Shown here: piece by piece, positions 19,187-40,900 of the stretch
Layout: each line of letters begins with the position of its first letter
How positions within the stretch are numbered: the first letter of the stretch is position 1
Source: a virus
Length of the DNA stretch: 64,000 nt
Virus record (IMG/VR): IMGVR_UViG_3300033388_005412
Coordinates: 62,001-126,000 of that record
Direction: 5' to 3' (one strand)
Translations under genes and position numbers: made by a program
Notes under the pieces: generated by a model
Told to the model about the DNA's origin: nothing
Seen by the model: only the letters and a program-made list of their open reading frames with translations
The model's database searches: none

Positions 19187-20386
19187 TCAGTCATAACAAG
19201 CGCTAACCAATTTCGTGTTAGAAATCCACTTAGTTATTGCGCCAACATCCTGATTTGTGTTCAAAGAATACTCAAAATAATCAATTAATCCGGTATCAAG
19301 GTTATATTCACCCGTCCCGAACTTTTGAATATCAACATCATGAATATCTTCAGATGTTTCCATTATCCTTTGAATAATTTCATTAAAAACCAACTCGGTT
19401 CCCATTGAAAGATTATTTATATAATTAACAACATTTGTTACAACAGTTCTCGTCACATCATCTTTTGTACCTGTTGGTGTTGCCGCCTTAAACTCCAAAT
19501 TAATGCTCATGCTGCACGCCTTATACGTCGGGGCCGAAGCAACACCGCGCTCACCCGCGGCCTGAGTCTCATTTATAGCCGTCTGAACGGCACTTAGGAC
19601 GCCATTTGATATAACAGGGCTTTCTGATATGACAAACACGCCGAATGTCCCTATGCCATACTCATAATTACGTATCAAAACATCGCTAACGCCCGGGACT
19701 GATAAACATGCCAATCGTATAGCCGTCAGGTTGGCCTTCTCGGCGCCCTTCATTGCATTAATTATTCTATATCTGAAATTATTATCAGATTCAGTATCGG
19801 CGCCTGTGGTTATTGGCGTCGGATTTGACACTAAAATCAAATCTCTGATAACAACATAATTTAAATCTGAATTATTCCAGACAGTTAACACGCCGCTCGG
19901 CGCATTTGCCGCCGCCCCTAAATATACTGATAATGCGCTGACTGTAACACCATCATCTGTTAAAACAATGTCATCTGTTGTTTTATATTCATATGTTCCG
20001 TCAGTATCCTCGATTTTAGTTAACGCCGGTATCACAATATCCTCAAGAACAACGCCGGTATCGTCATAAATCATGGTTTTTAAATCACTAACAGTTTTAC
20101 CCGACGCTGGATCAATAGTAAATTTAACCTCACCCAGTGGATAATTTGATGATGACCTATCCAGCAAAAACAATTTACCTATCTGGTCCAGGAATTCGCC
20201 GGTTGCCGTTGTTATCATGGACTGAACAAAACGCGAATCCAGATACTCCGATAATGAAACCAGCTCTGAGCTTCCGATCTCAAGTAAAGACCTTGCGATA
20301 CTCCCTGGTGAAAAATTTTTTATTTCAGTGTCGGTTAATAATCTATCTCTGGCCGACACCATTAAATTATCAAAATTCAATCCCAT
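19187..20386 (-). CDS. Baseplate J-like wedge protein
   Basis: This is a 399-residue protein matching the baseplate J/gp47/T4 gp6 family. The N-terminal helical part has the typical FSPGSIARSLLEI motif and a following TATGEFLDQIGKLF stretch, both usual in the family. The middle holds a beta domain with a short Ala/Thr-rich segment, and the C-terminal part (LVFNEIIQRIMETSEDIHDV) also fits. In the family it dimerises to form the wedge that clamps the tail tube to the fibre ring. It lies next to a gp25-like gene, which is the expected neighbour. Confidence 0.92.
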   Translation of the reverse strand: MGLNFDNLMVSARDRLLTDTEIKNFSPGSIARSLLEIGSSELVSLSEYLDSRFVQSMITTATGEFLDQIGKLFLLDRSSSNYPLGEVKFTIDPASGKTVSDLKTMIYDDTGVVLEDIVIPALTKIEDTDGTYEYKTTDDIVLTDDGVTVSALSVYLGAAANAPSGVLTVWNNSDLNYVVIRDLILVSNPTPITTGADTESDNNFRYRIINAMKGAEKANLTAIRLACLSVPGVSDVLIRNYEYGIGTFGVFVISESPVISNGVLSAVQTAINETQAAGERGVASAPTYKACSMSINLEFKAATPTGTKDDVTRTVVTNVVNYINNLSMGTELVFNEIIQRIMETSEDIHDVDIQKFGTGEYNLDTGLIDYFEYSLNTNQDVGAITKWISNTKLVSACYD

Positions 20387-20919: not shown

Positions 20920-21606
20920 TCAAAATAAATCCTTTAATTTTTTAACAATATTTAAAGCTTCCGACGCCCTTACCACCATAGTAACATCGGGTAAATGATC
21001 AGGCATACAGAATGGTGGCACGAACGCTTTCGGCAGCATAGACATCATCCCGCTTTCTTTTAACACCACGTTGCTGCGAGTGGGGAAGTCATATTCAACT
21101 ATCTTTCCGAAAACTGATATCTGAGACGGGCTAATAGTTACCAAACTGCCTTCTTCTCCATCACCGGCCGAGCGTAACGCAATAGCATCATCAGAAATCA
21201 ACACCCTGCTTTTGGCACCCGGGAACGACCTGATAGATTTATAGTTAGTTTTAACATTTGAATTATCAATCAACTGAGCAGGCTTCGCCGGTTCTACTGT
21301 ATCAGAATCATTTCCACCATCTTTTTTCATCTTCGGTGTAAAATACGCGAAATGTTTACTGACATCTCTCATATTTGATGAAACATTATCTTCATAAAAT
21401 AAAGTACAGTCAAAATCTTTATCATTTATAGAATAATCCATAATGCCGTTCATATATTGAATTTTGATATCAATAGGAACTTTAGAGAACTCAAAATCAC
21501 CGGCGGTCTTCGGCATAAAATAAATCAACAGCGTGTGATCAGGCAAGCTCCCGGGTTTTTCTTTTGATTTAATTATAAAATTAGAAAGTGTGATCTGCTT
21601 TATCAT
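20920..21606 (-). CDS. Small hub-associated baseplate protein
   Basis: The start ATG 21606 is chosen because AGGAG lies six bases upstream. A longer frame reaches into the hub gene but has no site. The product is 228 residues and overlaps the hub gene by 26 bases. The sequence is beta-rich: GAKSRVLISDDAIALRSAG and SLVTISPSQISVFG look like the strand pattern of an OB-fold or spike-base protein. The neighbourhood (hub, gp25, J) suggests a spike or hub cap. No specific family was confirmed. Confidence 0.75.
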   Translation of the reverse strand: MIKQITLSNFIIKSKEKPGSLPDHTLLIYFMPKTAGDFEFSKVPIDIKIQYMNGIMDYSINDKDFDCTLFYEDNVSSNMRDVSKHFAYFTPKMKKDGGNDSDTVEPAKPAQLIDNSNVKTNYKSIRSFPGAKSRVLISDDAIALRSAGDGEEGSLVTISPSQISVFGKIVEYDFPTRSNVVLKESGMMSMLPKAFVPPFCMPDHLPDVTMVVRASEALNIVKKLKDLF

Positions 21607-24600
21607 TTTCATCTCCTGTCGCGGCGCTAATTGTGTCCACAAAATCAAATATTGAATAAATTTTGTCCATAATATGAACTTTAAAACTATCCTTATACAT
21701 ACCTTCCAGGCCGGCGACATACGGCTGGCCCTTATATGTTAAACCGATGACATCTATACAATCTCTGCCCAGAAATTTTCCAATTGTCCAGCTCATAATG
21801 CTGTTTCCCAATAAAAAAGCCGGAATCACAACAGCCGCTGATATGCCTGTAACCCACGGTAACGCTGTCATTGCTGTGGTATACGCCCCGGATGCCGCTA
21901 TTGCCGAATATACGCCTGATGTTGCAGTGACCGCCACCCCAGCTGCTGTTGGTCCAACACCGGCAGCCAGTGCCCCCGATGCCGCTAATCCACCAGACAC
22001 AACTTCAGCCGCAACACCAGTTCCGACCACCCCAGTAACCGCAATCCCAGTTCCAGCCGCGGCCGTTCCCAACCCCATTGCCCCGACTGCTGCTTTCATA
22101 ATTCCTTTTCCCAATCCCATTGCGCTTCCAAAAAAAGGAACACCAAATCCATTCATAGCAGCAATTTCATATTTTATCACAGGATCCTGCGGATAAACAA
22201 TTGCATTCGGTGTAATAGTCGTTAAAAAACCTTTTTGATCAATTCTTTGAACAACCTGTTCAATTTCAATCGGACCATACATCCCATTATAAAGATCTCT
22301 GATAAAAATAATGTCCCAGACTTTCAACTGGGGCATCCCTAATAATGTTAATGACCCTCTATACATCGGCCGCATCATATTCGCCAGAACATTATATCCT
22401 ATTCTGTAAACAGTTGGAATTCGCCCACCCCAAACAGTTTGAACATTTCTTATAAAATCATTAAACCATTCAAACACCCCGAATGATGATGGGTCTATAT
22501 TATTCTGATATGAAATATAACTCTTCAGGTTACTGGTTTTAATATTATCATCAGCGAAAAATTCATGTGTTCGCCATGCACCGGTATTCGGGTTATCTTT
22601 TGGTTCCTCTGGATATCTTATTTTAACATGATTTGAAATTTCTTCAGAACTAGCTCTGATACTATTATCAACTATGTGTCTCAAACTATCAACATAATAA
22701 TAATTACGAATAGGCATATAGCCCCTTTCAATATTACCTTCTGAGTCTTTCAAATCATCAGGATTTTTAATACTCAGTGCGATGCCAGTTGCTTTACTAG
22801 TTTTATCCTCTTTTGTTTGACGAATTAAATTTTTATTTTCTATTGCATCCAATTGAAATTTGAATTTTAATATTTCTGATTTCGTGTATCCAACATTTTT
22901 ATCCTGTCTGATTTTAATCTTATCAACTGAAAATTTTTTAGTAAATAAATCGCCGGCAACGTCGCTCTTAAAAACATACTCCTGAATATCTGTGATAAAT
23001 TCCATCACTTTCTTTCTATCATTGGCTTTCATAACAATACTTAAACTATGTTCGGGATTTTTTTCAATATATTTATCCAATAATTTAAATATCTCATCAT
23101 ATGTTTGAGTTCTAACAATAGAACTAACAACATCCGCAACACCCCGGGTAATGAAACTTTTAATTCCGGCTTTTACCACACTGATAACACTGGATGACGG
23201 CCGGAATCCCTCTCTGTTTTTTTCACTATATTTACTACTAGGTTCTTTAAAAAAATCAGTCAATCGTTTCAAAAGTTCAGCACGATCCTTTCCTTTCTTA
23301 ACTATTTTTTCCATTTTTTCCCGCGTATCATACGCATCCGTATATTTATAATAACCGTTTCTAGGACCTAAATAAATTGTCTGTCTTGTTAAACCGGGAA
23401 CATTACTATTATATGGCAACACAGCCGCAATGTAATCTTCGTGATACAATGTTATCTCATTCAAAATTTCCCACAACGACTGATTACTTATTCTCCAGTC
23501 AAATGTATTATCTTTATATCGATTTCCTATATCTTTCGATGTCCAACCAAATAAAAATGTTAACCACCCCCCGAAAATATGATCCGTAAATGGTAAATAG
23601 ATATTTTCCAATCTAGGATCATAAGTTCCGAATTTATAATATATATCAACAATCGGATTTATTTTACTTCTGAAAAGATCAAAAAAACGATCTTTCGGAC
23701 TCGTGTAATATGATGTTGGTTCAATTTCAAGCCCGAATCTGGCCAGCATATTCGGACTGCCCATATGGCTTAAGCCTGTTATTGATTTCATAGCATAAAT
23801 AACAACATCACCATGTGTCTGCCCGGCACTGCAAAAACCAACATGATAATTGCCACCATCAAAACACTTCTCGTGTAATTCGGCCCCGAAACTCTGAGCA
23901 ACTATTGAAACTCTGTCACCTTGCTGAACCGACACGACCTTTCCAATAAAAAGTGTATCTAAATTCATTGGATTATTGTCGTATCCGGCCTTTATCATTA
24001 TCGTTGTGCCCTCACGTAATAGAAAACGTAAAACGGTCTGCTCCTGCAGCGTCTGTTCTTTCCTTATATTCTCACCCTGATTTGAATTTTTATCACTTAA
24101 ATTTCCAGTTATGTTACTGACACTTATTGTAGCAACATCCCCAGGTGTGTTTTTATTTGATATAACTTCAATACTTTCTATCGCGTTATATGTGTAATAA
24201 TCATCAATCATACCCCATTCTTTGTTGTCTTCTTCGATAAAATACAATTTTACAGTTGGATATGCACGACTCATATGAAGCGTTTTATCTTTTGCTCTAA
24301 ATCCGTTCGTATAACTAATACATTTATTTAAAAGATCTTCCTCCTCTGTTACCCCAAACTCAGATAACACATTCCATGACTGTAAAAAACTATTATCCAG
24401 CTGATTAATTGTGCTGATTTCATCTATCATGCGGTCTATTTGCCTTTTCTTTGAGTCAAGTGACTCAGCGCCTTCATCGGTTCCCAAGTCAGTTGTTATT
24501 TCACCTTCAAATTCTTGAATTAGTTTATAATATGCCCCGATTTTCAAACAATAATTTATCGATGCTACGTTTTTCAATAAATACTGCGATGTGTTGCACT

Positions 24601-27600
24601 CACCATACCTTCCCTTAACTTCATCGTCTGAAGAATTTAAAAAATTAACATATTTCTTCATCTCATTTTCATCATAATCTTTATTTATTTCAACAATTTT
24701 ATCCATAACTTCTTTTCTGGATTTGCCGCCTTTGCCCCATTTTTTACGCCAGTCTCCGCACAAAAGAGATTTTGATAATTTATCATTGTGTTTTTCAAGC
24801 ATAGATAATCCGGGGGCAAATTGCAATAACTCATCACGTTTATGCAAAAGCGCTATTTTAGTTTTAATGGTATCTCTCAATATTTGATAACTTGTATCAT
24901 TTTGAAATTCTTCTCTAATATAAAAAAAATCGGCCGGAGTTGATAGAAAACCGCTTTTGTGTTCAGGTAATTCCAAATCCTGATAATTACCATAATTGCC
25001 TTTCATATATAAAGGCAACTTAGGGATAAACTGTTCTTTTTTAAAACCGAATTTTGCTATTAATTCATCCTTAGCATATAAAATACATTTTATGGCCTGC
25101 TGCCTTAATAACAAATTAATAATACCGACGGCATATTTTTCAGGATCATGCCCTTTCGGCACCCCAATTGTTGGACTCCATACTGTTCCAGCTGCGAAAC
25201 CAATGCCGGCTCCTGCTAAACCACCAATAAATGTTCCCCACCCTGGAACAATTGATCCAACTCCAGCACCAAATACCATTCCACCTATAGCAAGCGGCAA
25301 ACCCGTATAAAATTTTAATTTTAATGCGAATCGTTCTTTTCTTTCTTTTTTCCAATTGTTATATAAGAATAAATATTTAATAGCATCAAAAATTTCAATT
25401 ATTTTTAATCCACCTTTATATCTTTTTAAAAATTCTCCACGGAAAAAACCCTTTTCATAATTAAACGGTAACCTAACATCGCCGCCTAAAATTAATGCTG
25501 ATACAACTTTTTCATATAATGGAAAATACTTTTTTAATTCAAAAGCATCACTGAAATTTAAATCATAATTATTTATTTGTTCAGTCGCCCAGTCCATTGT
25601 CATGTGACCATATGGCACATCAATTTCGGAACCATATCCAACAAAAAAGAATAATCTCAAAATCATAGCTCGCATATTCTGCATAGCTCTACCGTATATG
25701 TAACTGTCTTTCTCATTATCTTCCGGTAATCTATATTCAGTTATAAGTTTTTTCTTAACATCTTCGATTAAATTATCATCAAAGAAATTCGACGGCACAA
25801 GTCTTTCATATTCCGTCATGTCAATATCAGACTGAACCAGTCGTAACGTCAGATTCCACCACCCTGGTTTGCCTTTAATTGTCTCACATACAAAATCCTT
25901 AAATAATACACGAGTTATGCCCAATACTTTAAAAAGCCCGTTATAATTCAAATCAGGCGGAACTTCTAAACTATTTGTCCTCGCGATAAGTTTTGAAATA
26001 CCAATTCTTTCTCTCAATGACCGGGAAACGCATGCTTTTTTAGATAAAGATTTCAGCACTCTCATCAAAGTTTCATTACATGTCTGCAAATTAACCTGAA
26101 CAACCCAGTCACCACGGCCCATGTACTGTTTTGTCGGCATTGTGTAGTTCAGCACCGGAATTTCGGCCATCCTTGTTTCCAATGACGCCGACATACCGGC
26201 TATAATAGTATCTTCATCCTCGGTGAATTCAAATTTATATCTATTGGTAAAACCATATTTAAGCTTTTTCTGTCGTGCAATCTGTTTATCCATTAAAACC
26301 ATAATTTTTTTTCCGGATGGTATCTTTTCAAATTCATTAACAAATTCCAAAAGTGTATACGGGCCATGATCTTTTTTTAAATCAGTCCCTGGTATATCTA
26401 TAGGAATTGAAATAGTTTTCTCGCCCTTATACGCCTCCGCGAATTTTTTAACACCCCACCCGTAATATGTTGAACCACTTCCATAGTAAAATAAACCAAT
26501 AGTTCGCCAAAATTCAGTCCATGCCCGCACAATAACATTTGTAACTTTAGTTGTCGTGCCGGGCCATTCCAGACTATTAACTAATTCAACAATTTTAAAT
26601 TGTATATCAGCATTTAATTTCAAAATATCATTTTGTAATGATTCGCGCTCCTCATCGCCGAACTCCGTTATATCATATCTGCATTTAAACCGTTTAAAAT
26701 CATTTGTCCCGACCTGACGCAGCCAATTATCCGGCGCAAGAAAATTAAAACCACTTTTAATCGTGGTATTTTCATTCTGTTTAGATAAAGAAGGAACATA
26801 ATTCATTTTGATATCAACATCATCGTCAATTACTGGAAGTCCGGTTAATAAAGGTTTAACATAATTTTCAAATGGTTTGCAATTTGATATATTTTTTGTA
26901 CGATTTATGTTCTGATTGCTGGCATACTGCATATCGTTCGCCGTTTCCGGATACTGTAAATTAGTTATCTGTGAATAATATTCAATCTGTTTCAACGCAT
27001 CTTCATTTGACACGCAAAACTCAAATCCCGATGAATACGGCGAATAATTAAAAACATCCAGCACCAAATTACATTGAAGTGACTCAGGAAACCCCGGAAC
27101 TGTCGACACAACTATTGATTGTAAAGCACATGCAAGCTGAACATCTTCATATATTCCAAGCTCTTTATATTCATCTATCATATCAGCAGCCACACCCGCT
27201 TTACTTATATTTGTTCTTTCCTTTTCTTTTTTGCTTTTGGCCTTTTTTAATAATTTTATATCATTTTCTAATTTTTGAATCTCGGTATTATATTCTTTAA
27301 ATTTCTCAGGATCTGCGGCAAACACATCAAGATTTGCTTTTTTTATCTTTAGTTCTTCTTCCTTCTCCGTTATTTCTTTTTGCTTTTCTTTTATATCAGC
27401 ATCAAAGTAATCAATAACCCCGGCATACGTGTCCATTACAACTTTCTGAAAATTTTCATCAGTTTTTTTAAAATATCCTGCGCCCTGATTCTTATCAACT
27501 TCCCTCTCATAAGACGGTGATCTGTATCTTCCGGGTGATTCCTCCAATTTTTTAGGTTTACTCCACGTTACATCAGGTATTAATAAACTTCTAATGTGCT

Positions 27601-28447
27601 GATTTTCAATCGGGAGAAACGGCGATCTTAAAAACTCAGCCAGTAATTTGCGAAAACTATTATCATAATCCTTCTCCACTTTGCCGTTAATATCCTGCAG
27701 CGATGGAAAAAATATAGTCAATTCTATACGATTATTCTGCTGGCCCGTCTTAATTTTCGGCGTGCCGGCCGTCCTAACCGTATTAATCGGCATGTTAACA
27801 TTCTGTTCCGTTATTGTTATCTGATCAGGTGGAACCGGGAGAATAACAGTTCCTATTTTACAGGCACCGGGAACTTGCAATTCCTCTTCAGCGCCTTTCA
27901 TTGCCTCTATTATTTTACCTGTTCTGGCAATTTGGGCTTTATAACTTTCTTTCTTTTCAGCGAAATCAGCCCGCCTGTTTTTATCAGCTAATTGTGTGAG
28001 ATATTCTTTATTACTAATTTGATCTGTTGACCTGACACTGTCAAACCCATTTCCTGATTTGATAAGTTCAGCATTCATGTTTTTACCATCAACATAAACA
28101 ACACCTAATTGACGATCATACATATCTTCAGAAATTATTGTTTGATCCTGACTTGGATCTTGCTGTAAAAACTCTATTTCTTTTCCAGCTAAATTATCTT
28201 TTGCCCATTGTGTTGCTTTTTCACCTTCTGGTGTGTCTTTTTCATATGCATCAACACCGATGGGCCGAACTACTACTGGATCAGCACCATCAAATGACAC
28301 CCAGTATGTATCACCATCAATAACACCTGTAGGACAGGGACGATCCGGATCTATACTAGGTACTATTTTACCTGTTTTTAAAGGAAAACATTTACTGATA
28401 TTTTTCTTATTTATCGCAGGATCGTATTTTAAATATTCTTCACTCAT
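21581..28447 (-). CDS. Giant baseplate hub protein with N-terminal thermonuclease domain
   Basis: This is a 2288-residue protein. Residues ~38-165 form an SNase-like domain with DGDT (D44, D46), R61, D66, E69 and R112 in the family positions; only the usual Pro of D-T-P-E is Tyr. Residues ~195-300 look like a tail-protein domain (PVPPDQITITEQN). Residues ~1046-1100 are a glycine-zipper hydrophobic segment. Residues ~1400-2080 fit a gpD/gp27-type hub (TLFIGKVVSVQQGDRVSIVA). The end, ~2103-2218, is Ala/Gly-rich and membrane-like. Hub proteins in the family form the central ring and meet the spike. The nuclease may act at the host surface or on entering DNA; this is inference. Its start overlaps a 62-aa gene by ATGA. 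Confidence 0.82.
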   Translation of the reverse strand: MSEEYLKYDPAINKKNISKCFPLKTGKIVPSIDPDRPCPTGVIDGDTYWVSFDGADPVVVRPIGVDAYEKDTPEGEKATQWAKDNLAGKEIEFLQQDPSQDQTIISEDMYDRQLGVVYVDGKNMNAELIKSGNGFDSVRSTDQISNKEYLTQLADKNRRADFAEKKESYKAQIARTGKIIEAMKGAEEELQVPGACKIGTVILPVPPDQITITEQNVNMPINTVRTAGTPKIKTGQQNNRIELTIFFPSLQDINGKVEKDYDNSFRKLLAEFLRSPFLPIENQHIRSLLIPDVTWSKPKKLEESPGRYRSPSYEREVDKNQGAGYFKKTDENFQKVVMDTYAGVIDYFDADIKEKQKEITEKEEELKIKKANLDVFAADPEKFKEYNTEIQKLENDIKLLKKAKSKKEKERTNISKAGVAADMIDEYKELGIYEDVQLACALQSIVVSTVPGFPESLQCNLVLDVFNYSPYSSGFEFCVSNEDALKQIEYYSQITNLQYPETANDMQYASNQNINRTKNISNCKPFENYVKPLLTGLPVIDDDVDIKMNYVPSLSKQNENTTIKSGFNFLAPDNWLRQVGTNDFKRFKCRYDITEFGDEERESLQNDILKLNADIQFKIVELVNSLEWPGTTTKVTNVIVRAWTEFWRTIGLFYYGSGSTYYGWGVKKFAEAYKGEKTISIPIDIPGTDLKKDHGPYTLLEFVNEFEKIPSGKKIMVLMDKQIARQKKLKYGFTNRYKFEFTEDEDTIIAGMSASLETRMAEIPVLNYTMPTKQYMGRGDWVVQVNLQTCNETLMRVLKSLSKKACVSRSLRERIGISKLIARTNSLEVPPDLNYNGLFKVLGITRVLFKDFVCETIKGKPGWWNLTLRLVQSDIDMTEYERLVPSNFFDDNLIEDVKKKLITEYRLPEDNEKDSYIYGRAMQNMRAMILRLFFFVGYGSEIDVPYGHMTMDWATEQINNYDLNFSDAFELKKYFPLYEKVVSALILGGDVRLPFNYEKGFFRGEFLKRYKGGLKIIEIFDAIKYLFLYNNWKKERKERFALKLKFYTGLPLAIGGMVFGAGVGSIVPGWGTFIGGLAGAGIGFAAGTVWSPTIGVPKGHDPEKYAVGIINLLLRQQAIKCILYAKDELIAKFGFKKEQFIPKLPLYMKGNYGNYQDLELPEHKSGFLSTPADFFYIREEFQNDTSYQILRDTIKTKIALLHKRDELLQFAPGLSMLEKHNDKLSKSLLCGDWRKKWGKGGKSRKEVMDKIVEINKDYDENEMKKYVNFLNSSDDEVKGRYGECNTSQYLLKNVASINYCLKIGAYYKLIQEFEGEITTDLGTDEGAESLDSKKRQIDRMIDEISTINQLDNSFLQSWNVLSEFGVTEEEDLLNKCISYTNGFRAKDKTLHMSRAYPTVKLYFIEEDNKEWGMIDDYYTYNAIESIEVISNKNTPGDVATISVSNITGNLSDKNSNQGENIRKEQTLQEQTVLRFLLREGTTIMIKAGYDNNPMNLDTLFIGKVVSVQQGDRVSIVAQSFGAELHEKCFDGGNYHVGFCSAGQTHGDVVIYAMKSITGLSHMGSPNMLARFGLEIEPTSYYTSPKDRFFDLFRSKINPIVDIYYKFGTYDPRLENIYLPFTDHIFGGWLTFLFGWTSKDIGNRYKDNTFDWRISNQSLWEILNEITLYHEDYIAAVLPYNSNVPGLTRQTIYLGPRNGYYKYTDAYDTREKMEKIVKKGKDRAELLKRLTDFFKEPSSKYSEKNREGFRPSSSVISVVKAGIKSFITRGVADVVSSIVRTQTYDEIFKLLDKYIEKNPEHSLSIVMKANDRKKVMEFITDIQEYVFKSDVAGDLFTKKFSVDKIKIRQDKNVGYTKSEILKFKFQLDAIENKNLIRQTKEDKTSKATGIALSIKNPDDLKDSEGNIERGYMPIRNYYYVDSLRHIVDNSIRASSEEISNHVKIRYPEEPKDNPNTGAWRTHEFFADDNIKTSNLKSYISYQNNIDPSSFGVFEWFNDFIRNVQTVWGGRIPTVYRIGYNVLANMMRPMYRGSLTLLGMPQLKVWDIIFIRDLYNGMYGPIEIEQVVQRIDQKGFLTTITPNAIVYPQDPVIKYEIAAMNGFGVPFFGSAMGLGKGIMKAAVGAMGLGTAAAGTGIAVTGVVGTGVAAEVVSGGLAASGALAAGVGPTAAGVAVTATSGVYSAIAASGAYTTAMTALPWVTGISAAVVIPAFLLGNSIMSWTIGKFLGRDCIDVIGLTYKGQPYVAGLEGMYKDSFKVHIMDKIYSIFDFVDTISAATGDENDKADHTF

Positions 28448-28632
28448 TTCTGTAGTAATTTCCTCTGGCGATGATCCATTTCTTTCTGATTATTTTTATT
28501 AGTTTTACGGCGATCCATAACAGATACAGTGCATCTATCCCCAGTCGCCGATTCAACTAACTGAGCAATCATGTTAGCTAAATTATTCGCGTCTTTGTCA
28601 GACTGTATTCTCACCTCAACATTATATGCCAT
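28444..28632 (-). CDS. 62-aa small protein coupled to the hub gene
   Basis: This is a 62-residue protein with a strand-like N-terminus (YNVEVRIQSDKD) then a helical part and a Lys/Arg-rich end. Its stop overlaps the hub start by ATGA, so it may control hub translation or act as an assembly partner. A GAGG ribosome site precedes the start and merges with a conserved intergenic box. No family was recognised. Confidence 0.7.
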   Translation of the reverse strand: MAYNVEVRIQSDKDANNLANMIAQLVESATGDRCTVSVMDRRKTNKNNQKEMDHRQRKLLQK

Positions 28633-28636
28633 ATTC

Positions 28637-28672
28637 CTCTATATATACTATTATATTTAACACACATTTATC
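28637..28672 (-). promoter_or_regulatory. Intergenic box related to the other 35-base boxes
   Basis: On the minus strand it reads GATAAATG, then AT-rich sequence, ending in TATATATAGAG. The overall layout matches the four 35-base boxes, but it is one base longer. It overlaps the stop of the 2103-aa gene and the ribosome site of the 62-aa gene. Confidence 0.35.
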
Positions 28673-31600
28673 ATTTTCCGTATTTTTGCAATTTCTCCCG
28701 GACACTCACACTGTCGATATTATATGACGTAGTCGAGAAATTATTTCGTGTATACGCTTTCTGCCTGATTTCATTTTTAAAAACAGGCATCCTCGGTAAA
28801 CTTAAATATTTCTTTTTCTGTATATTTTCAAAACTTTTATTATTAAATAATTCTATATAAGCCTTAGGCAAATCACTTGGATTTCCTAAAGGAGTCTGCA
28901 TTAATTGAGCCCAATCCAATTCCGGTTTTGTAAAAGCATAATCCCACTTCTCACCGCCGTTGCCGGGCATGTGTCCCAATGACCCCATCTGATTAGGCCT
29001 GAACAAATTCAACGCAGCATATCCTAAAGCAACCATGCCGCCGATTCTACTTAAATTACCGGCATTTTTCCATGCGGTTTGCCCAAGTTTATTAACAAAA
29101 TCCTTTTTCATACATTGCAACATTGTTATATCCGAACCCTGTGTTTGAAAATTCAAACCATCCAATAAAAAAGGTTTAACGTGTTCACTGGCAGCTGTTG
29201 CTCCGGGATTTGTAATATTATGTATAATGGCCTTACCAATAGTTGAATTGCCCGATATAAAACTTTGTGTTACCCTATTACCACGACTCCAATAATCAGG
29301 TTGATCCATTTCCGCCGCAACCATCCATTCCCGAGTCCTTACTTTAGCATTTGGACCTAAATGTTTCCGCACAAATGCGGCCGACGACTTACCCGGCAAT
29401 TCAGCATTCCAAAATTCCCCAACTTTAACATCCAATTTCGCCGTATCGTCCATAAACCTCACATTCTTCGGCTCACTAAGATTATACAACGCATTTGAAA
29501 CCTCATCTGAAAGTGTCATAGTTTTACCTTTAACTTTCAAACCCCATTCTATCATCGGAGTTATTTTCCCCAAAAAATCATGTGCTTCGGTTGGTCTCCA
29601 CTTCTGGTCACCCATCAAAGCAATCGCTCTATTAACCAACGGTGTTATTTTAGGCGGCCACGATTTTGGAAATGTTGCCATTTTTTCCATAACCTTTTCC
29701 CATTCACCAGGACTTGATTTCATAAACGCAAATTCATTTCTGATATTTTTCTTTATAATTTCCTTTGCAATTTTCAATGGCTTTAACACACTTGCATGTA
29801 ATTTAGGATCATATGTCGCATATTTTGTGACATCGCCACGTGTAACTGGCTCCAATGCCATCGTAGATGCTTTACTATAAACACCCCTTCTAGTAAAAGC
29901 AGCCTGTGAAAACTCTTTCATACCCTTTGGAGTAATCGCCAAAAAAGCCTCATCACCATCGGAATCACCCCCTAATAATTTTCCGATAACGGATGATATA
30001 CGCATCATATCACCCTTTATAGTACTTCTTGCCCACGCCATGACAGGCGGCATTGACTCACCGCCCGTTGTTGGAAATCTTATTGCAACACCAGGCGCCG
30101 GTATCAATTCCTTTGAAAAGGCATCAGACCATAACTTCCTTATTTGTCCGCCTTTAATACTATTCAAATTGGTTTCCTGAGTTGCTTTAAATAAACCATC
30201 AACGGTCATATCCTTTTCACCTAATTTACCAACTACTTTATTAGCAACCTGCTTCCAATATGGGTGAGCCGCACCAACATGATTTTTATTTCCAGAAATC
30301 CACCCGCCATAATTTTTTAAATATTTCATAACAGAATCCATCTCAGACGATCCCATACTGGTTATCTGCTGCTTAATCATCTTAGCATTATTGTTAACCC
30401 AGTCTTTTGAAACCTGCACTTCAAAGTCCAAAACAGATTTCTTAGTATAATTTCCCAATATACCTTCCGCCCCTGTTATATATGGATCAGCAAACTGAAG
30501 TGTTCCAGTCGCGCCTGGTGCGGAAAATTTCATTCCAGGTGTTATTTTATATTCGCTCATAATATCAAGCATTTTTTGTAAAAAACCACCCGCACCAGGA
30601 GATCCGCTAAGTACCTTTTTCAATAAATTTGCCTGAGTTATCATTAATTGTGATGTTATACTGTGTTTTCCGTCAGTGGCATCAATCCATGGCTGCTCGT
30701 ATAACTGAACAACACTGTTCGACATGCCAAATCTTGTTCCTGGAACTTTAGCAAATGTCGCTTTCGGCGTTTTCACATATCCCAAACCAATTTTCTGAAA
30801 TAAATCGGCGATATCTCTCGGGACTGTTCTGCCCCTAATAATTTGTTCTGATATCAACTTACCCTTTGCTTTCAAATATGTTGGTAATTTCGAATATTCC
30901 GGACTATTTACATCATAAAGCGTTCCCTCAATCTCATGAAATGTTTGATCGGCTATTTTAGCCATTGAGCCCCATTCAGACGGATCACTATGCAAAAACT
31001 TTTTGGCCATTTTTTTAAACTCGTTACCCTCAACTCCTTTTAAAATACTATTAAATTTTTGTATTATATCAACACCGCCCGGTTCCACAACTCCCTGTGA
31101 TATCGCAAACTGCCTACGAAGCTGTCCCATTTTATAACTATTTTGCTCCTGTGCCATATTCAACAATCCTTCAAATAATTTAGAACTGCCAGGCTGATGC
31201 TTTAAAACATTTAAAAAAGAAATATTTAAAGGCACTGTTCCTCCGCCGCGGCCCATAAGCGATTCCAATTGACTAAACCCAAACTGCATATTTGACACTA
31301 GCACACCAGGTGTGAAATCGCCCGGCTGTTGTTTATTAACTAAAGGTCTAACAATTTCAAGAAAGGAAACATATTTCTTTGAAAAAATCTTATCGACAAC
31401 TGCTGAGTCATATGACTTGATTTCGCCAACCATTTTACGGGCTTCTTCGGCCCAGCCTGAAAACTCATCAGGTGACATTTCCCACGCTTTCTGATAAAAT
31501 TGCGAATACATGCTACCGGGTATTGATATTCGTCGTATCAATTCAGAAACAACCGCCCCTTTTTCAGCAGCATCCCATGTTCTATTCATAACAGCAGTCA

Positions 31601-34600
31601 CACCGGCCGCTGACGCTGTTATATTTGAAAAACTAGGAACATCCTGTGTCATCTTCAAACTTTTCATAACTTTAACAATACTATTTAATGCTTTATCATA
31701 ATTTCCGGCAAAAATACTTTCTTTAAACGCATTTGCTTTTATCACTAATTCACCAGTTTGGCGATGAGTTACAACATTCAATTTATCACTTATTCCGGTG
31801 CTCTTAACGGCTCTTACTACCGCAGCCTTTTTATTGGCATCCTTTCCAGCCCATGCTGAAATTCGCCCAAGCATAATAGTTAACATGCCGGCAGGATCAA
31901 CTGTTTTAAGAGTATCATGTCCAACCATCATATCAACACCGTCTGTCATGTCAGCTGTTTCTCTAATTATTCCTTTAGTTAATCCCTTCACCAAAACTTT
32001 CATACCGGCTTTTGCTTTATGTAAATAATCGAATTCTATACGTGTTTTACCTTGATATGATTTAACACTTGTAATTACGGCTTCAGTATTTCCTTTATAA
32101 TGCTGTGCAATGCCATTTAGTACACCAAAAGAATCATTGGGTTTAATAAACTGCCCAGGAGCAAGCTTTTCAATTTTCGTATCAACAATAGCATGTCCCC
32201 CATGACGAACAACCCCGAAACGATTCAAAAATTTTTTATCCATCCAAACCTGCTGCTCATGTGTTTCTTTACTATGCGTAATTAAAACATTCGCCCTATG
32301 CATATAATTTCTAAGTCCACCGTCAAGCATTTCATCTTCAAATAAACCAGGCATAAATGATCTACCTGTCTTATCAACTTTTAAACCTTTCCAATCAATA
32401 TTTCTACCACGGCCAACATCTATGGAAGTTGTGCTACCAAAAAACTGATACAGTGCCCTATGCAACGGCATACCATGAAATTCCGGATACACTTCATCAT
32501 ATGGTAATAATGTTTGTATTCCTCTAATTGATTTATTCGGTGATACAAGTCCTGAGACAAATGGTTTAAATTTAGGAGACATTTTCTCCATGGCATCCAT
32601 ATAATTCGGGCGATTTTTACGAATATTCCAATCTTTTTCGGACCATAAATAATTATCCAAAAAAGCATATAAATTATCTAGTACAGATTCATGCGCCACG
32701 TTTGAGTCATATAATTTTTGCCAACTCATTCCTTTATATAACCTACCAACCAATTTATCAACAAAATTTCTAACACCGCGGGGACCCTGTGGCAGATCTT
32801 CCAAGTATTTTATTCTATTATTAACCAGCGTTCTCAAATGTTCACCTGATAATGATCTATGCGCACCAGGATTTAATTTCATAGACTTTTGCTGATCAAG
32901 TGAACCTTGCAAAAACCTTATCACATCGCCAACTCCGCGACTTTTAGATTTATTTAATAATGTATTGAACGCATCAATATCACCTTGAATATTTTTACCA
33001 ATAACCTGTCCCTTTAAATATTGCGGCAACATTTTTATCAATTCATCACTTGTCACAGGAACAACTTTGTACTTTGCGGAACCCTTCAACGTAGCTAATC
33101 TTTCTCTATTTGCCGTTAACCCACTTATTTTAGCCACAAACTCACGTTTACCCTTTTGTACATCTGTTAGTTCAAATCTTATTGCCTCTTTGATCTCAGC
33201 GCCGTTTTTTGTCTTAATAACATTTAAAATTCCTATATCTTTTATACTATCTACTTTCACACCGTCAACAACAATTTTATCACGACTCATATCAATGTAT
33301 GTCAACACAGAATCCCTTTCTAAAAATTTAGCATGAATTTTCTGTAATTCCGGTAAAGCTGTTTTTTCAAGACCACTCATAAATCCCATAGATTTTAAAG
33401 TTTCTTTATACGGCGCAACATTTAATGATCGTGTCCAATCAACAATATCAACACCAGATACCGGCTCGGCGCCTTTTGTTATATTTCTCATACCCTTGTC
33501 GACCATGCCCTGAACATCTTTTTCAGCGCCTTGTATTAACAAACTCTTATTTTCAGTCGCCATTAAATTCAAAAAATATTTATGTATATTTGCAGACAAC
33601 TTTTGATACTGTTCGTTTGGGTAATTAATATCACCTATTTTAGCCTGTGATGTGATTTTTATAGGAGAAATCGGATCAAATCGCGTGGCCCATTTATTCG
33701 GCATATTCAAAGGTAATTTTATATGCCTGGATTGACCATTTGCTTTATTAAGAGCAACATCAAAAACAAATTTAGAACCGCCTCTGCCGAAATCTTCTAT
33801 GTTAACTGTGATATCATCAAGATTTGCGCCTATGTCGCTCGCTGTTTTTCTTATTAACTGGTAATATTTCATTAAATTATCATATCCCGGGCGAATATAC
33901 CCCGCACCTTTTAACATCTTTCCTGTTTTGGTGTATTTTCCACCAAAAACATCTAAAAGATTAGCGTCTTTAAATACTCTGTCTATTCTTTTTAATTGTT
34001 CTCCGCCTAATTTATTACGAAACTTTTCAACAACATCCCGGCTTATCTCACCTGTTGCTGGGATATCAGATAACAACTCTTTAATATTGGTTGTTGATGC
34101 CAACCTAACAGATTGAACAATATCATTCGGATCATTTACATATTTAGGAAACTCCAGCATTTTATATGATAAATCACTGATTTTCGCAATAGCTGACGGT
34201 ATATCACCAATCTGCTTAACACCCCTCATTTCGACACGAAATTTATTATTTCTGGCTTGGGTGTGATAAAGAAACTCCCTTATCGAGTTTTTATATTCCT
34301 TTAGAATCGAAGCCGGGAGACTAGTTAAACTATCATTATCAAATGAATTAACCTCAAGACTGGGGTGTTTATTAACCATTCTTCTTTTTATATATTCAAT
34401 TGAATTAACATCATCGATATTATCGCTTATATTTTCACCCCATTTTTTAATAACATCGCCACTGGTTGATTTCATAATATTCTGCTGTATCTCTTTATAA
34501 CCAGCAAGCGGATCTTGAATTGATGATGCGCCGAATCCTTTAATACCTTCAGTCATATAGTTCATTTCAAATCTTTTATTTATATCAGTAATCTTTCCAA

Positions 34601-34982
34601 TAGTATTTTTAATATTACCAACATAATCGGTCATAACATTATCAGCATCTCTCGTCAATTTCTTTACCGAATCAATTAACTGTGATTGCCCAGTAGTTAA
34701 CTCCGGAACCCATTTATCCAGCTCAAAAGTGGCACCCGATGTCGCCTGTTTTGTTATTTCATTGTCCATCCACGGGAATAAATTCGCAATGGTTTTTTGA
34801 AACTGACGAAGCGCTTCCGAAGACGGATAATGCAAATTATAACCAAAAATCTTCTTTGTATTATGATATTTCTTCATCAACGTATTCATAGACACACCAT
34901 ATATTCCCGCAAAGGCCGTTATAGAAAATAACCTGGCGCCTAAATTCACATCTTCTCTATCTTTTCTGCTAAAATTTTTCAT
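28671..34982 (-). CDS. Giant RNA-polymerase-like virion protein (two double-psi beta-barrel signatures)
   Basis: This is a 2103-residue protein. Residues 993-1004 read G-M-K-x7-K-G (K995, K1003), matching the beta-subunit motif with both catalytic lysines eight residues apart. A D-M...D-G, then P-x-x-M...L-G-x-I follow, as in beta. Residues 1635-1677 read R-F-P-T, then I-K-G (1655-1657), then D-S-D-G-D (D1673, D1675, D1677), as in beta-prime; the I-x-G to DGD spacing is the same as in Escherichia coli RpoC. Both barrels in one chain, beta type first, is the arrangement of YonO and crAss-like virion polymerases. Ends are hydrophobic (~17-35, ~1981-1995). It starts on a TAATG junction with the tape-measure-position gene, so it is probably a tail-carried polymerase. 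The comparison is from memory of the families. Confidence 0.82.
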   Translation of the reverse strand: MKNFSRKDREDVNLGARLFSITAFAGIYGVSMNTLMKKYHNTKKIFGYNLHYPSSEALRQFQKTIANLFPWMDNEITKQATSGATFELDKWVPELTTGQSQLIDSVKKLTRDADNVMTDYVGNIKNTIGKITDINKRFEMNYMTEGIKGFGASSIQDPLAGYKEIQQNIMKSTSGDVIKKWGENISDNIDDVNSIEYIKRRMVNKHPSLEVNSFDNDSLTSLPASILKEYKNSIREFLYHTQARNNKFRVEMRGVKQIGDIPSAIAKISDLSYKMLEFPKYVNDPNDIVQSVRLASTTNIKELLSDIPATGEISRDVVEKFRNKLGGEQLKRIDRVFKDANLLDVFGGKYTKTGKMLKGAGYIRPGYDNLMKYYQLIRKTASDIGANLDDITVNIEDFGRGGSKFVFDVALNKANGQSRHIKLPLNMPNKWATRFDPISPIKITSQAKIGDINYPNEQYQKLSANIHKYFLNLMATENKSLLIQGAEKDVQGMVDKGMRNITKGAEPVSGVDIVDWTRSLNVAPYKETLKSMGFMSGLEKTALPELQKIHAKFLERDSVLTYIDMSRDKIVVDGVKVDSIKDIGILNVIKTKNGAEIKEAIRFELTDVQKGKREFVAKISGLTANRERLATLKGSAKYKVVPVTSDELIKMLPQYLKGQVIGKNIQGDIDAFNTLLNKSKSRGVGDVIRFLQGSLDQQKSMKLNPGAHRSLSGEHLRTLVNNRIKYLEDLPQGPRGVRNFVDKLVGRLYKGMSWQKLYDSNVAHESVLDNLYAFLDNYLWSEKDWNIRKNRPNYMDAMEKMSPKFKPFVSGLVSPNKSIRGIQTLLPYDEVYPEFHGMPLHRALYQFFGSTTSIDVGRGRNIDWKGLKVDKTGRSFMPGLFEDEMLDGGLRNYMHRANVLITHSKETHEQQVWMDKKFLNRFGVVRHGGHAIVDTKIEKLAPGQFIKPNDSFGVLNGIAQHYKGNTEAVITSVKSYQGKTRIEFDYLHKAKAGMKVLVKGLTKGIIRETADMTDGVDMMVGHDTLKTVDPAGMLTIMLGRISAWAGKDANKKAAVVRAVKSTGISDKLNVVTHRQTGELVIKANAFKESIFAGNYDKALNSIVKVMKSLKMTQDVPSFSNITASAAGVTAVMNRTWDAAEKGAVVSELIRRISIPGSMYSQFYQKAWEMSPDEFSGWAEEARKMVGEIKSYDSAVVDKIFSKKYVSFLEIVRPLVNKQQPGDFTPGVLVSNMQFGFSQLESLMGRGGGTVPLNISFLNVLKHQPGSSKLFEGLLNMAQEQNSYKMGQLRRQFAISQGVVEPGGVDIIQKFNSILKGVEGNEFKKMAKKFLHSDPSEWGSMAKIADQTFHEIEGTLYDVNSPEYSKLPTYLKAKGKLISEQIIRGRTVPRDIADLFQKIGLGYVKTPKATFAKVPGTRFGMSNSVVQLYEQPWIDATDGKHSITSQLMITQANLLKKVLSGSPGAGGFLQKMLDIMSEYKITPGMKFSAPGATGTLQFADPYITGAEGILGNYTKKSVLDFEVQVSKDWVNNNAKMIKQQITSMGSSEMDSVMKYLKNYGGWISGNKNHVGAAHPYWKQVANKVVGKLGEKDMTVDGLFKATQETNLNSIKGGQIRKLWSDAFSKELIPAPGVAIRFPTTGGESMPPVMAWARSTIKGDMMRISSVIGKLLGGDSDGDEAFLAITPKGMKEFSQAAFTRRGVYSKASTMALEPVTRGDVTKYATYDPKLHASVLKPLKIAKEIIKKNIRNEFAFMKSSPGEWEKVMEKMATFPKSWPPKITPLVNRAIALMGDQKWRPTEAHDFLGKITPMIEWGLKVKGKTMTLSDEVSNALYNLSEPKNVRFMDDTAKLDVKVGEFWNAELPGKSSAAFVRKHLGPNAKVRTREWMVAAEMDQPDYWSRGNRVTQSFISGNSTIGKAIIHNITNPGATAASEHVKPFLLDGLNFQTQGSDITMLQCMKKDFVNKLGQTAWKNAGNLSRIGGMVALGYAALNLFRPNQMGSLGHMPGNGGEKWDYAFTKPELDWAQLMQTPLGNPSDLPKAYIELFNNKSFENIQKKKYLSLPRMPVFKNEIRQKAYTRNNFSTTSYNIDSVSVREKLQKYGK

Positions 34983-37900
34983 TATGTATTATAAACCATA
35001 ACACGATTGCTGCCGCCTAAACTCGGCGTTAGTGAAATCGAACCGTGAACACCAGCCCTGTCAAGCGCGATTTCAATTGTCCGCTTTATTTCCATATAAT
35101 TTTGAGTTGGTGTGTATGCTATGCCACCCGTCGGGTTTTCCATATTAATTGGCATAATACCCGGACTATTTGCCACTCTCCTGGCCTGGCGGTAATGACC
35201 GAGACCAAAATCATGAGACTGAAGACCTTCATTTTCAACTGTAACAAGTTTAACATCATCAATCGGAACTTCCGGCGCATATACCGCTGAATTAGGATGC
35301 GGCATCGGCGAAACCTGCTGTTTACTTACCACCATATCAATTGCTCTGCCGTCAATCGCGTTCCATTTAGTTTCAAGTAAATGACCCGTTTCGGCCGGAA
35401 CATATTTTAATATATTATCTCTTTCTTCCGGATCAGTTGTTTGTAAAAACGACACAATATGCTGTTTTTCCTGCGGGGGTGTGGCACGATACATATACGT
35501 CCATCCCTTTCCACTTTTATCACTGGGTAATAAACCCATCATCGTACCGCGGGCCTCGTCTAAATATTGCTCATCTCCTGTCATCTGATATAGCATATTA
35601 TTTTTGGTATATGTTAATTGATCAAAATATCTATTAATTTCACGACCCTTTCTAACACTCGCCGGTATGTATGTCGAACCTGTCACATCATTAACCACAC
35701 CATGAACTAATCCATATGCAGCCCCAACTGCCGCACCGGCTGCAGTACCAAGTCCAGGTCCGCCCACGAGTGTCCCAGCCCACGCACCGGGAATCGAACC
35801 TTGAAATGCTGTTGTTTTTGACATAAATCCCCGAGAATACGCATCAATCCAATGGTCATACGGCTCTGACCACATCTTAACACTTCTTCCATATAACATA
35901 TCTCTTTTGTATGCTTCCAATGGTGTTCTATATGGAAAAAACTTCCTGGAAAACGGCAAATCTGCATGCGACACCGTCTCCCAGACGCTTCCCATGAATC
36001 TCTCAGGTAATGAATATTCACTTGCGGCTTTTATATCCTCATTTAATGACATATTATTATATTCCGAATCAGGGGTTAAAACTTTTCCCCTAAAGCGATA
36101 TGGAAAAAGCTCTTCCTTCATCATGATCGCTTTTCTTTTTTTCAAAATTTTATTTAAACGATCTTCATGATCATACCCACCCATCATTTGCGCCTTTACA
36201 ATATCTAACTCCTGTTTGTATTCAGGACTGTATGGGCCCGTGTTCGCAAGAATATTTAGTCTATCGATATGGCTATACCCTTCAGTTCCAAAACCAAGCC
36301 CCCTGGAATACAATTCACCAGCCATGTGTCTAGCTTGACGAACCGCCGCGATGTCTCTGTCATATCGTTTTTCACTATATGTAGCGGGATGCATGGCCAC
36401 AGGTTTTCCACGCCACTGGTATTGAATATTGCCTTCATAAGTTCCGGTTTGCTTCATATAAAAATTAATCTCAGATATATCCTGTTCAGTCGGACCTATA
36501 AAACTATTTAATTCACTATCACTTAAGTTTTTAATTTTTTGAACAGATTTTCCACGAGTTCCTCTTATAATACCGTCATGCGCACCACTGATATTATTAT
36601 ATGCATCATACACATTAGCACCGGCCATTATCTCTCTGTTTTTACGATCTAATTCACTGGTTGCTCTTTCCAATCCTCTCTTGGGATATAGTCCCAAAAA
36701 CATACGGGTCACATCAGGCACACTCATACCCATCATCTCTCCCATCGCTGGCCATGTGAAATTAATATCAAATGCCGTTTCATGCCCCAAACCAGGAAGT
36801 AATAACTCACCCATTGGAATTTTCGAAAAAGGATTACCAGTTTTATACTTTTGAGTCATCCAAGACGGCATACGGTTACAATTATGAAGTAACATAAACG
36901 GCGTTGTGAATGATTCGCCTTTCTCAACTTGAATATCATAAACATTACCATTATAATGTTTAGTTTGAACATCAGTAACCATGGTAAATAAGATATCATC
37001 TTCGAAAAAATGTCTATGCCAACTTGATTTTTTATTATTTCGTAATTTCTTATTTTTTATTTTTATTTTATACCCATAGTTTTCATTTAATAATTTTACT
37101 AATTTTTCCTCATATTCTGATAAAAGAGTTAAATGATATGATCCTGTTGGTTTATATAAATGAACACAAGAAACACATTTAAACTGTAACAACAAATTTC
37201 TTAATGATAAAATTAAGGATAAAGATGGACTACTTGACTTTATAGCACACACATTGGATTTAATTGACCCATCGCCTTCAAAATGACCATGAAATAAACC
37301 CAAAATAAATTCTTTTGGGAAATGATATAATATAAAATCATCAATATATTTATTCTTTGCCCCTGACCCAAATAATTTTGAAAATAATTTATTATAAAAT
37401 GTAGAATAAATATCAATTTCAATACCATTTAAACTTGCTTTATATATATTTCCTTTAATATTTTTATTTTTAAACCATTTTAAAATATCCAATGCAAGAG
37501 TATTTCGTTCATCTTTATGTAAAGCAAATTTAACAACATGACCTTTTGAAGATGAAGATCCCTCACTCAAATATAAACCACAAATAAATCCAAAATTATA
37601 ATCTAATTCTATAAATCTATTATATCTTTTACCACAACCTTGTCCATTATATTTCCAAATTTTATCACCATCATTCCGATTATAATATTCTGACATAAAA
37701 TCATCACAATCTAAAGTTTGATAACACTCATCTGTTTTTAATATAGGATATCCAACAAAATCATATTTACTGATATCTTCAATATTTTTCCACTCTGGTT
37801 TATAATCTCTGTATTGTTGCCTTGTTTTATATCTTTTTTCATTAAAAGTATTATATCCGCATGTTCCACAAGATTTATATAATCGATTTTTAACACACAC

Positions 37901-40900
37901 TATATTTCGCTCTGGATGACTATGACAAAATTTAGTTTTTATAACATATAAGGGATGGTTATGTGTTAACCACACATTTTCAAAATTGTTATATAATCGA
38001 ATTTTATATACTTTCTCATTAACTAGTCTACTACTTTTTTTAATAACTTTTGTATAATCAAATCCAAAAACATTAGCACCTTTTTGTATATCTTGAATTT
38101 CTACAACTTTCATATTTTTAGTTACAATCATACTATCTTCAGTTAAACATATAGGATTAACAGTTTCAATCTCACCACTCATACCCCTTGGCCGCGGCAC
38201 AAGTCGGCGCCAAAGCTCTGTATTATGAACCGCAATACCTTCTGCAACATAATAATTTAAATCTTGTATCTGTAAATCGTACACATCAACATTTTTATCA
38301 TTTAATTGTTCAACTTTTTTAACTTTTATAAATAATTTATTATCATAAATAAAAGAATTTCCATTTTTAAAATCAGAAATATCCATACTTTTATCATATA
38401 ATAAATTATATATGCCAATAGATGACTGCTTATTCCAATGAATATAACTACTAATGCCCGGCTTTCTTATTGTCCCTTGAGGTAACAATCCACCACCTTT
38501 ATCATGATAATTTAAAACTAAATTACCATAAAAACCCAATATAAGTCCAATATCAAAAACATCCTTCACAAAATTAGACGAACACGAATGAAATCCAGCT
38601 TTCTTTATATTAGAATAACCATCTCCAAGTTGAACACCCTTAAAAAATTCCGAAACAATTTTTTTAGAAGATGATTTTATTATGTAATCTATTTTCTTAT
38701 TCTCAGCTCTTTTACCACATAATTGTGTAGCTAATATAGATAACGGTATACATTGTATTCTTAAAATTAATGTATTGTTTTTTACTTTTAATGTACCAAA
38801 ACTACCAAATTTAATTCGAACAATTTCTAATATTTGTTTTGCATATGCTATTTCATTTTTGTTCATCACAAAAGAAACTCGTCCTCCCTTTTCAACATAA
38901 CCCTCAGCCGCATACCATCCCAACAAATATGAAATACTCTCATCAATTTTAACATATCGATTAAACTTATATATTGTTACTCCACGTCTATGTTCCCGTA
39001 TAGCATCTTTAGCAATTTTATCAGAAATTCCATGATCTCGTAATTCTTTACGAGTATAAAAATTACTTGAAAGTAATTTTCGCGCCTTAATATATGATAT
39101 ATACCTCTGTTTATTTTTTATATTATTTGAATACATAAATTCATTATCGTGATACCTATCAGTATACTTTGATAAATCAATCACATATTCTTTCCCTTTC
39201 GGCTTTACAATTGGAACGACACAATAATCGCCCGGTTTGATGTCCTTAATATTTGTATCACACACCTCGATCTTGCTATTTCTTCGGGAACAAAAAAGAC
39301 ACTTCGCTTTATTTCCAGGAATACATGGTCTTGTATTTTTGTGAGAACTATCAATACACCTCGTTCTTTTAAATATCGGAATATGGTGTTTTGATGTTCC
39401 TATTAATTCAGTATTAATAGTGGCCAATTTCATCTTATATAAATCAGATGCTTTTTTATGAATTTTATCAACAACATTATGTAACTCGCCGTCTAACGAT
39501 AAAACTTTATCACCAACATTTACATCAATAATTTTTTTTAATCCATTATCGGTCGAAATATCAGTATCGGATAGAAAACATGCACCAGTTGGGTCGCCCA
39601 TATTCTGATCCCAAAATGCTCTTCTGAATGATGTGATGTCATTTGATGACGCCAATACCGGATTATCCTCAAACGTACGAGCGAAGCCAAGCATTTTTTT
39701 ACTCATTGTCTCGGCTCCGAAACCCCATAATCCCATATATTCAGTTAAATTATATAATTGTTTATCAATTGTTGATTTCACACCTGAAGCACTCATCGGC
39801 GCAACACCTCTCATTTCAGCGGTTCCCGGTATAAGCGGATTATCTCCGCCGCCTATTGTAACAGCACCGCCCTTAAATGCCGAAATATCGCCATGACCTC
39901 TGCCTGCATAACCCATTGACGATAATGCTCTGTCAACCTCTTCTTTATGCATTTCACGCGGCGGTAATATAGTGCGCCCAACCGTTGCGGCCAATGTTGG
40001 ACCAATAATAGGAAATTCTGAAAAAGGTACACCAGTCATTGGAAATGGCTGAGAATAATAATGACGGAACGCGTATCTTCTGCTTCCACCAAGAACATAA
40101 CCTAACGGATTAAAATCCAAAATCGGCAATGGTTTATATAAAAGCTGTTCAAGAGGATTTCCCAATCCTTCCGGAGTTGACTTATATTTTGATTTTGTCC
40201 TGGCAAACCAATTCGGTGTGAACATTTGTGTGCGATTGCCCTTCCATTGTCCACTGCTTAAAAGCCACCAACGACCTTTTCTATACGGAACCTCTTCTCT
40301 ACCGCTATATATTTCTTCTAACTCATCCTGAGATTTAGTTATATCAAATGCACCAAAACCCTGTGTCGCGCCCAGGCCGATGCCCATCAGCATACCATAT
40401 CCTGCTCCAGCCGGACCACCCCAAATTCCACCGATTTTTGCGCCTGCGGCAATTGGAACAACCGCGCCGCGCATTGCCCTCATAAACGGACTATCAATGA
40501 AACCAGGCATTAAACCTTCAGCATATTTGGCCGAATCTGTTATGCCCAAATCATCATTGACACGTGCAAAAAGCATTCGCCCCTTGACACCCTGTTCCGC
40601 AATCGCCGTGTTAAGACCCTCGTCAAATACAGTCCCGTCAAATAATGGATTCTGATCAGTTAACTTGTCGGCTATATCCCAGGCATTTATAGCTCCGGCA
40701 ATTGGTAAAACACGCTTCATCATCACACCTCTTGTGAATAAATCAGCGCCTGTTTTATATGCTTTCGGATCCAGACCAAGACCAAACCACTCGAACAATC
40801 TGGCTGATCTATTAATTGCGGCCTCAGAAAACACATTATTGAATAAAGATGATTTTTCTCCAATACCTGGCCAGAATCCATATAAACTTGTTACATCTGA

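Follow-up and report, generated by a model that had tools for sequence, protein, structure and literature searches.

A candidate single-chain virion RNA polymerase encoded between the tape measure and hub genes of a contractile-tailed jumbo phage

Single-chain, two-barrel RNA polymerases that are carried in the virion are already known from crAss-like phages and from Thermus phage P23-45. The latter provides the experimental precedent: its virion RNA polymerase (RNAP) gp96 is fused to the tape measure protein and transcribes the pre-early genes, after which a second, non-virion RNAP, gp64, acts (PMC10770324). Contractile phages of the phiKZ type carry a multisubunit virion RNAP in the head (PMC13282480), and phage 0305phi8-36 encodes a single-chain enzyme, orf99, in its nonstructural right arm, at a distance from the tail genes (PMC2147016, PMC7824862). 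Here we describe gene P0001, located in a window of 64,000 nucleotides (bases 62001–126000) of the 203,294-base virus record IMGVR_UViG_3300033388_005412 (G000), the product of which we take, on sequence grounds and with a probability of roughly 0.62, to be a single-chain virion RNAP of a contractile-tailed jumbo phage. The gene occupies position X in the order tape measure–X–hub, and products of genes in this position are referred to as slot proteins. A beta'-like catalytic signature is present in the same slot of four distant phages, which makes it probable that they bring a transcription enzyme of their own into the cell through the tail.

A preliminary description of the window had placed a 2103-amino acid (aa) open reading frame (ORF) at 28671–34982 without giving a strand; the ORF matches exactly and lies on the minus strand. 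The motifs R-F-P-T, I-K-G and D-S-D-G-D (D1673–D1677) listed there are present at the residues named, and the gap from I-x-G to DxDGD measures 15 residues. Genuine beta' subunits of phages (RAPT...PIKG...AGDYDGD) are picked up as well by a DNA pattern that has this gap. The features of P0001 are, in window positions:

28671–34982, minus strand: P0001, candidate single-chain virion RNA polymerase, from its ORF, motifs, signature and relatives
29952–30080, minus strand: beta'-type signature R1635-F-P-T ... I1655-K-G ... D1673-S-D-G-D1677, confined to slot proteins among 638 ORFs
31971–32006, minus strand: beta-like motif G993-M-K995-x7-K1003-G1004, weak, matched by 12% of shuffles and missed by RpoB profiles
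29001–29057, minus strand: hydrophobic segment, P0001 residues 1976–1994, from hydropathy windows and third-ranked in P0001

Searches with whole P0001 gave no match in Pfam, PHROGs, PDB (phmmer), INPHARED (tblastn) or an IMG/VR peptide scan, so that the case has to be made from the signature, from how it is conserved and from the order of the genes. The DNA pattern [ILMF]-[KR]-G-x14-G-D-x-D-G-D, run on 2.9 million viral contigs, returned 31 stretches, comprising genuine multisubunit beta' genes, chance matches and one candidate (L127), which lies inside a 1912-aa ORF of the 111-kilobase IMG/VR contig G001. Searches by tblastn with the sheath and hub of the window led to Moorella phage MTATph1, Bacillus phage KLEB27-3 and Acinetobacter phage ME3, and the slot ahead of the hub is filled by gp034 (2434 aa) in KLEB27-3 and by ME3_36 (1603 aa) in ME3. 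These last two phages were thus found independently of the motif; G001 was found through part of it, so that its motif is not independent evidence and its synteny is. Of two further scans, that for GGDxDGD[QE] gave mainly multisubunit phage beta' and chance matches, and that for I-x-G-x14-GD[ST]DGD gave no further relative of P0001. In MTATph1 the slot gene is CDS0027 (1309 aa; within the stretch OR602862 30512–37880, L153), followed by a transposase gene, and part of its product resembles the N-terminal part of gp034 (24% identity, expectation value (E) 0.002). By eye this common stretch looks like a DnaQ-type exonuclease.

The specificity of the signature was assessed on 638 stop-to-stop ORFs with a minimum length of 100 aa, drawn from the whole of G000 and from the tail regions of G001, MTATph1, KLEB27-3 and ME3. 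The pattern R-x-P-x(32-42)-DxDxD occurs in four of these ORFs from five phages, and these are exactly the four slot proteins: P0001, the 1912-aa protein of G001, KLEB27-3 gp034 and ME3_36, the last with DHDQD as its aspartate motif. Their R-to-D distances are 38, 37, 40 and 43, respectively, compared to 38 in P23-45 gp96 and 39 in the crAss-like virion enzyme. The strict form R-x-P-x(32-42)-DxDGD arises in 1 of 3000 shuffles of P0001 and the loose form in 0.5–0.8% of shuffles of each slot protein; gp034 aside, no DxDGD ORF of the complete KLEB27-3 genome has an R-x-P context. An alignment of four segments of about 60 residues, taken from the slot proteins only and invariant at the R, the P and the three D, was turned into a profile and compared with 177,635 distinct PDB sequences. 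Five matches were obtained up to E 10, all of them largest subunits of RNA polymerases (three from RNA polymerase V, two the beta' subunits of entries 7s00/7s01; E 0.17–0.76, values that should not be read as coming from a blind search, since the segment had been picked by its motif). This bias is addressed by a control profile with R-x-P and DxDxD fixed and the other ungapped columns permuted, which matched three unrelated PDB proteins and no RNA polymerase. Pfam model PF00623 matches gp034 at the aspartates (E 0.015), and the sole Pfam match of the window fragment, also at the aspartates, is PF05183 of the RdRP/QDE-1 family (E 0.099), although at 11.7 bits versus a cut-off of 23.8 the match to this YonO/QDE-1-like model is not significant. 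Phage beta' profiles rank P0001 first among the 638 ORFs (E 0.028), or third after P0003 and P0002, two other proteins of G000 discussed below. Pairwise profile comparisons among the slot proteins are weak, the best being that of the window with G001 at the DSDGD site. Taken together, the beta' signature and the gene slot are well supported.

The beta half of P0001, in comparison, is only plausible. K995 and K1003 of the proposed G-M-K-x7-K-G motif are as first described and fit the RpoB spacing, but the motif alone is not beyond chance, G-x-K-x7-K-G being found in 368 of 3000 shuffles (12%) of the lysine-rich P0001, and RpoB profiles and an RpoB position matrix fail to select the K995 motif in the protein. 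A P-x-G register at +35/+37, common to P0001 and RpoB, occurs in 1 of 3000 shuffles; it was spotted post hoc and is therefore not counted as evidence. The two proven single-chain enzymes examined are also without an obvious RpoB-type motif upstream of the aspartates, so that its absence from relatives is tolerable, yet this is no evidence for a beta half here. Of the single-chain, two-barrel virion enzyme put forward in the preliminary description, the beta'-type signature and the position between tape measure and hub thus stand, whereas the beta-type barrel is not established; of the catalytic residues, the aspartates are conserved among homologues and the lysines are not demonstrably so.

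Several observations count against P0001 being a polymerase. No match of the whole protein to an RNA polymerase reaches statistical significance, individual matches are weak (E 0.02–0.2), the segment used for the profile was picked by its motif, and AlphaFold predictions for residues 1470–1830 and 900–1060 returned uninformatively low confidence (predicted local distance difference test scores of 36.3 and 37.1). An equivalent of the lysine motif was not found in KLEB27-3 or ME3, nor at the matching place in G001, and K1003 and D1673 are separated by a long gap of about 670 residues. The MTATph1 slot gene contains no DxDxD, and the record of KLEB27-3 gp034 gives only 'structural protein' as annotation. 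The alternative that survives best, and that we nevertheless hold to be unlikely, is a polymerase-derived structural or pilot protein, in which the beta' barrel and aspartates were kept, the beta half or the activity was lost, and the role became one in the inner tail or in guiding DNA. Such a protein would fit the lack of a convincing beta motif in all four slot proteins, the DHDQD of ME3 and the long, divergent flanks, but the three aspartates and R-x-P are kept across four very diverged proteins, suggesting selection on the metal site, and the active crAss-like enzyme carries DFDID, so that loss of the glycine is compatible with activity.

The claim that the gene sits between a tape-measure-position gene and the hub of a sheathed tail holds in full. 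The structural module of the window includes terminase, portal, major capsid protein and tube-like genes, and its tail features are:

34982–43537, minus strand: tape-measure-position gene, 2851 aa, with intein insertions; G001 gene in matching position, E 8.8e-22
28444–28632, minus strand: 62-aa ORF between the slot gene and the hub gene; E 2.1e-5 and 0.003 in the five-tail comparison, and E 0.0023
21581–28447, minus strand: hub/tail-lysin-like protein, 2288 aa, with an SNase domain; matches the ME3 baseplate hub and a KLEB27-3 baseplate protein
49199–52015, minus strand: tail sheath; PHROG 16991, E 1.7e-56
19187–20386, minus strand: baseplate wedge protein (Baseplate_J); Pfam E 3.1e-20, PHROG 6 E 2.1e-40
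43543–44205 and 44248–44583, minus strand: two small tail-chaperonin-position genes, both matching a single G001 gene, E 0.0011 and 9e-8

Sheath and wedge mark the tail as contractile. Homologues in G001 keep their order (tape measure, E 8.8e-22; hub, 5.7e-16; sheath, 9.4e-27; tube, 1.8e-16; chaperonin-position gene, 9e-8), and sheath, tape measure and hub are syntenic and homologous with those of ME3/KLEB27-3-type phages, a 0305phi8-36-like tail lineage (tblastn with sheath and hub). In the window, G001, KLEB27-3 and ME3 alike, the slot gene stands among the late-module virion genes that run from tape measure to hub. In three phages (window, G001 and ME3) the tape measure stop and the slot gene start have a single base in common (TA-ATG), this being the sole one-base overlap among the listed gene pairs of the window; translational coupling is predicted from it, and its conservation suggests, if the slot protein is a polymerase, that the enzyme is supplied in step with the assembly of the tail. 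A hydrophobic segment lies about 100–130 residues ahead of the C-terminus in each of the four slot proteins and is followed in G001 and KLEB27-3 by a small C-terminal domain that matches the separate 62-aa ORF of the window. Hydrophobic segment, tape measure overlap and small C-terminal domain would all fit a protein that lies beside the tape measure and enters the cell envelope on ejection.

This arrangement bears on a second alternative, in which P0001 is an active virion polymerase packaged in the head as in phiKZ and its gene position reflects merely a late-operon habit. Gene order alone does not show location, and phiKZ-type contractile phages do hold their virion RNAP in the capsid (PMC13282480); on the other hand, the slot gene is coupled to the tape measure gene and adjacent to the hub in all four phages, with the one-base overlap in three, and the P23-45 polymerase lies within the tape measure protein itself (PMC10770324), which makes head packaging improbable in our view. 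Least probable of all is that P0001 is no polymerase and that DxDGD and R-x-P reflect chance or a calcium-binding loop of a tail protein, for although DxDGD alone arises in 78 of 3000 shuffles of P0001 (2.6%) and a pattern scan of cellular genome contigs returned, among the matches listed, mostly repeat proteins of calcium-binding type, the conservation of the signature in this one slot of four phages speaks against it, as does the controlled PDB profile search.

We infer that P0001 has a second barrel, is packaged and ejected, uses promoters and is active, and the proposed mechanism is accordingly conditional. One P0001 chain would hold a beta'-type double-psi barrel bearing the DxDGD metal site, probably preceded by a beta-type barrel. 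Translated in coupling with the tape measure protein, it would be placed in the tail tube or at the tail tip, be ejected ahead of or with the DNA, and start transcription of the early genes upon their entry, after which P0002 and P0003, made after infection, would take over as non-virion polymerases. We give even odds to the broader proposal that P0001 belongs to an ancient and so far unrecognised lineage of single-chain RNA polymerases that is a standard part of the contractile tail in 0305phi8-36-like jumbo phages. Tape measure, polymerase and hub would there form a translationally coupled trio, the polymerase ending in a hydrophobic segment and a small domain, and in the window phage the tail polymerase would stand at the head of a cascade that includes two more single-chain polymerases.

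P0002 and P0003 are paralogues of 661 and 648 aa, 46% identical and encoded outside the window, with the common signature R-[YF]-P-W-V-x-P-I ... GGD[FY]DGDQ:

G000:147331–149316 (= L011:3331–5316), plus strand: 661-aa beta'-signature protein, R-[YF]-P-W...GGD[FY]DGDQ
G000:172127–174073 (= L012:8127–10073), plus strand: 648-aa beta'-signature protein, R-[YF]-P-W...GGD[FY]DGDQ

They are the top two of the 638 ORFs against the phage beta' profile (E 4.5e-4 and 0.0079), and the three best PDB matches of a profile of their signature are RNAP beta' subunits (E about 1); an IMG/VR and INPHARED search by peptide scan and dedicated pattern gave no relatives. We regard both as candidate non-virion RNA polymerases. 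G000 further encodes proteins resembling sigma-70 region 4 at L006:4498–5004 and L012:10848–11534 (both plus strand; E 4.4e-8 and 0.028), so that the phage may redirect or use the host RNA polymerase too.

Other observations concern neighbouring genes and other contigs. Intein splicing domains with LAGLIDADG endonucleases are found in the tape-measure-position gene, which also bears a second Hint-like stretch, and in a tail-tube-like gene (46522–48438, minus strand). At L006:10499–12789 (plus strand) an RtcB-like RNA ligase start (E 2e-27) is followed by further ORFs, which may be an inserted endonuclease and the remainder of the gene, possibly another intein or intron. A promoter motif search returned ribosome-binding sites and two similar AT-rich boxes, TAAATATTATATTATA, at about 20897 and 45663 of the window (minus strand), 40–60 bases upstream of late genes and possibly late promoters. 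Giant ORFs (1500–3434 aa) with R-x-P ... GDxDGDK on other viral contigs (L290, L284, L272, L271, L285, L287 and L289) are probably further single-chain, two-barrel polymerases; their genomes have no obvious contractile tail in the stretches examined. Proteins of about 1300 aa with IKGVIWF...HQGDFDGDEPFG in L208 (Planktothrix sp. PCC 11201), L205 (a cyanobacterial metagenome-assembled genome) and L237 are possibly another single-chain polymerase-like family.

If P0001 is indeed a virion polymerase, tail-carried transcription enzymes extend beyond crAss-like phages and the Thermus siphovirus into contractile tails, and there span hosts as far apart as Bacillus and Acinetobacter. The onset of transcription upon entry of such phages would then be accounted for, and the history of two-barrel polymerases would gain very deep-branching sequences. 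KLEB27-3 and ME3 are cultured phages in public records.

Among the slot proteins, those of KLEB27-3, ME3 and G001 share with P0001 the gene position, R-x-P...DxDxD and the hydrophobic segment near the C-terminus, with almost no detectable overall identity; KLEB27-3 has an additional gene between tape measure and slot protein, and the other slot proteins are annotated only as structural or hypothetical. The literature compared, to which the P23-45 survey table and subscription papers did not belong, holds no single-chain polymerase with a gene of its own between the tape measure and hub genes of a contractile tail, in line with the preliminary suggestion that the arrangement is undescribed. P23-45 gp96 resembles P0001 in being a single chain, in the 38 residues from R-x-P to DxDGD and in its association with the tail tape measure, and both P23-45 and, as candidates, G000 have a second phage polymerase in the genome. 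P23-45, however, is a siphovirus whose polymerase forms the N-terminus of the tape measure, whereas the window phage has a contractile tail and no such fusion into the tape measure polypeptide, the polymerase candidate being a separate ORF joined at TA-ATG; the window phage also has two paralogous non-virion candidates, and overall sequence similarity is undetectable. The virion RNAP of crAss-like phage phi14:2 (gp077 in the record used, gp66 in papers; structural by tandem mass spectrometry) is likewise a giant single chain (2180 aa) with an R-x-P to DxDxD spacing of 39, but has DFDID instead of DxDGD, and phi14:2 is a podovirus with the polymerase gene beside other giant structural genes rather than in a slot flanked by the tape measure and hub genes of a sheathed tail. 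The phiKZ/AR9 virion RNAP is a virion-carried, two-barrel enzyme of contractile-tailed jumbo phages too, made of several subunits and carried in the head (PMC13282480). The YonO-like/RdRP-like family, which includes 0305phi8-36 orf99, has both barrels in one chain and is linked weakly to the window fragment by PF05183; 0305phi8-36 shares its tail-module lineage with the window phage, as seen through the ME3 annotations, and in role orf99 is closer to P0002 and P0003 than to P0001.

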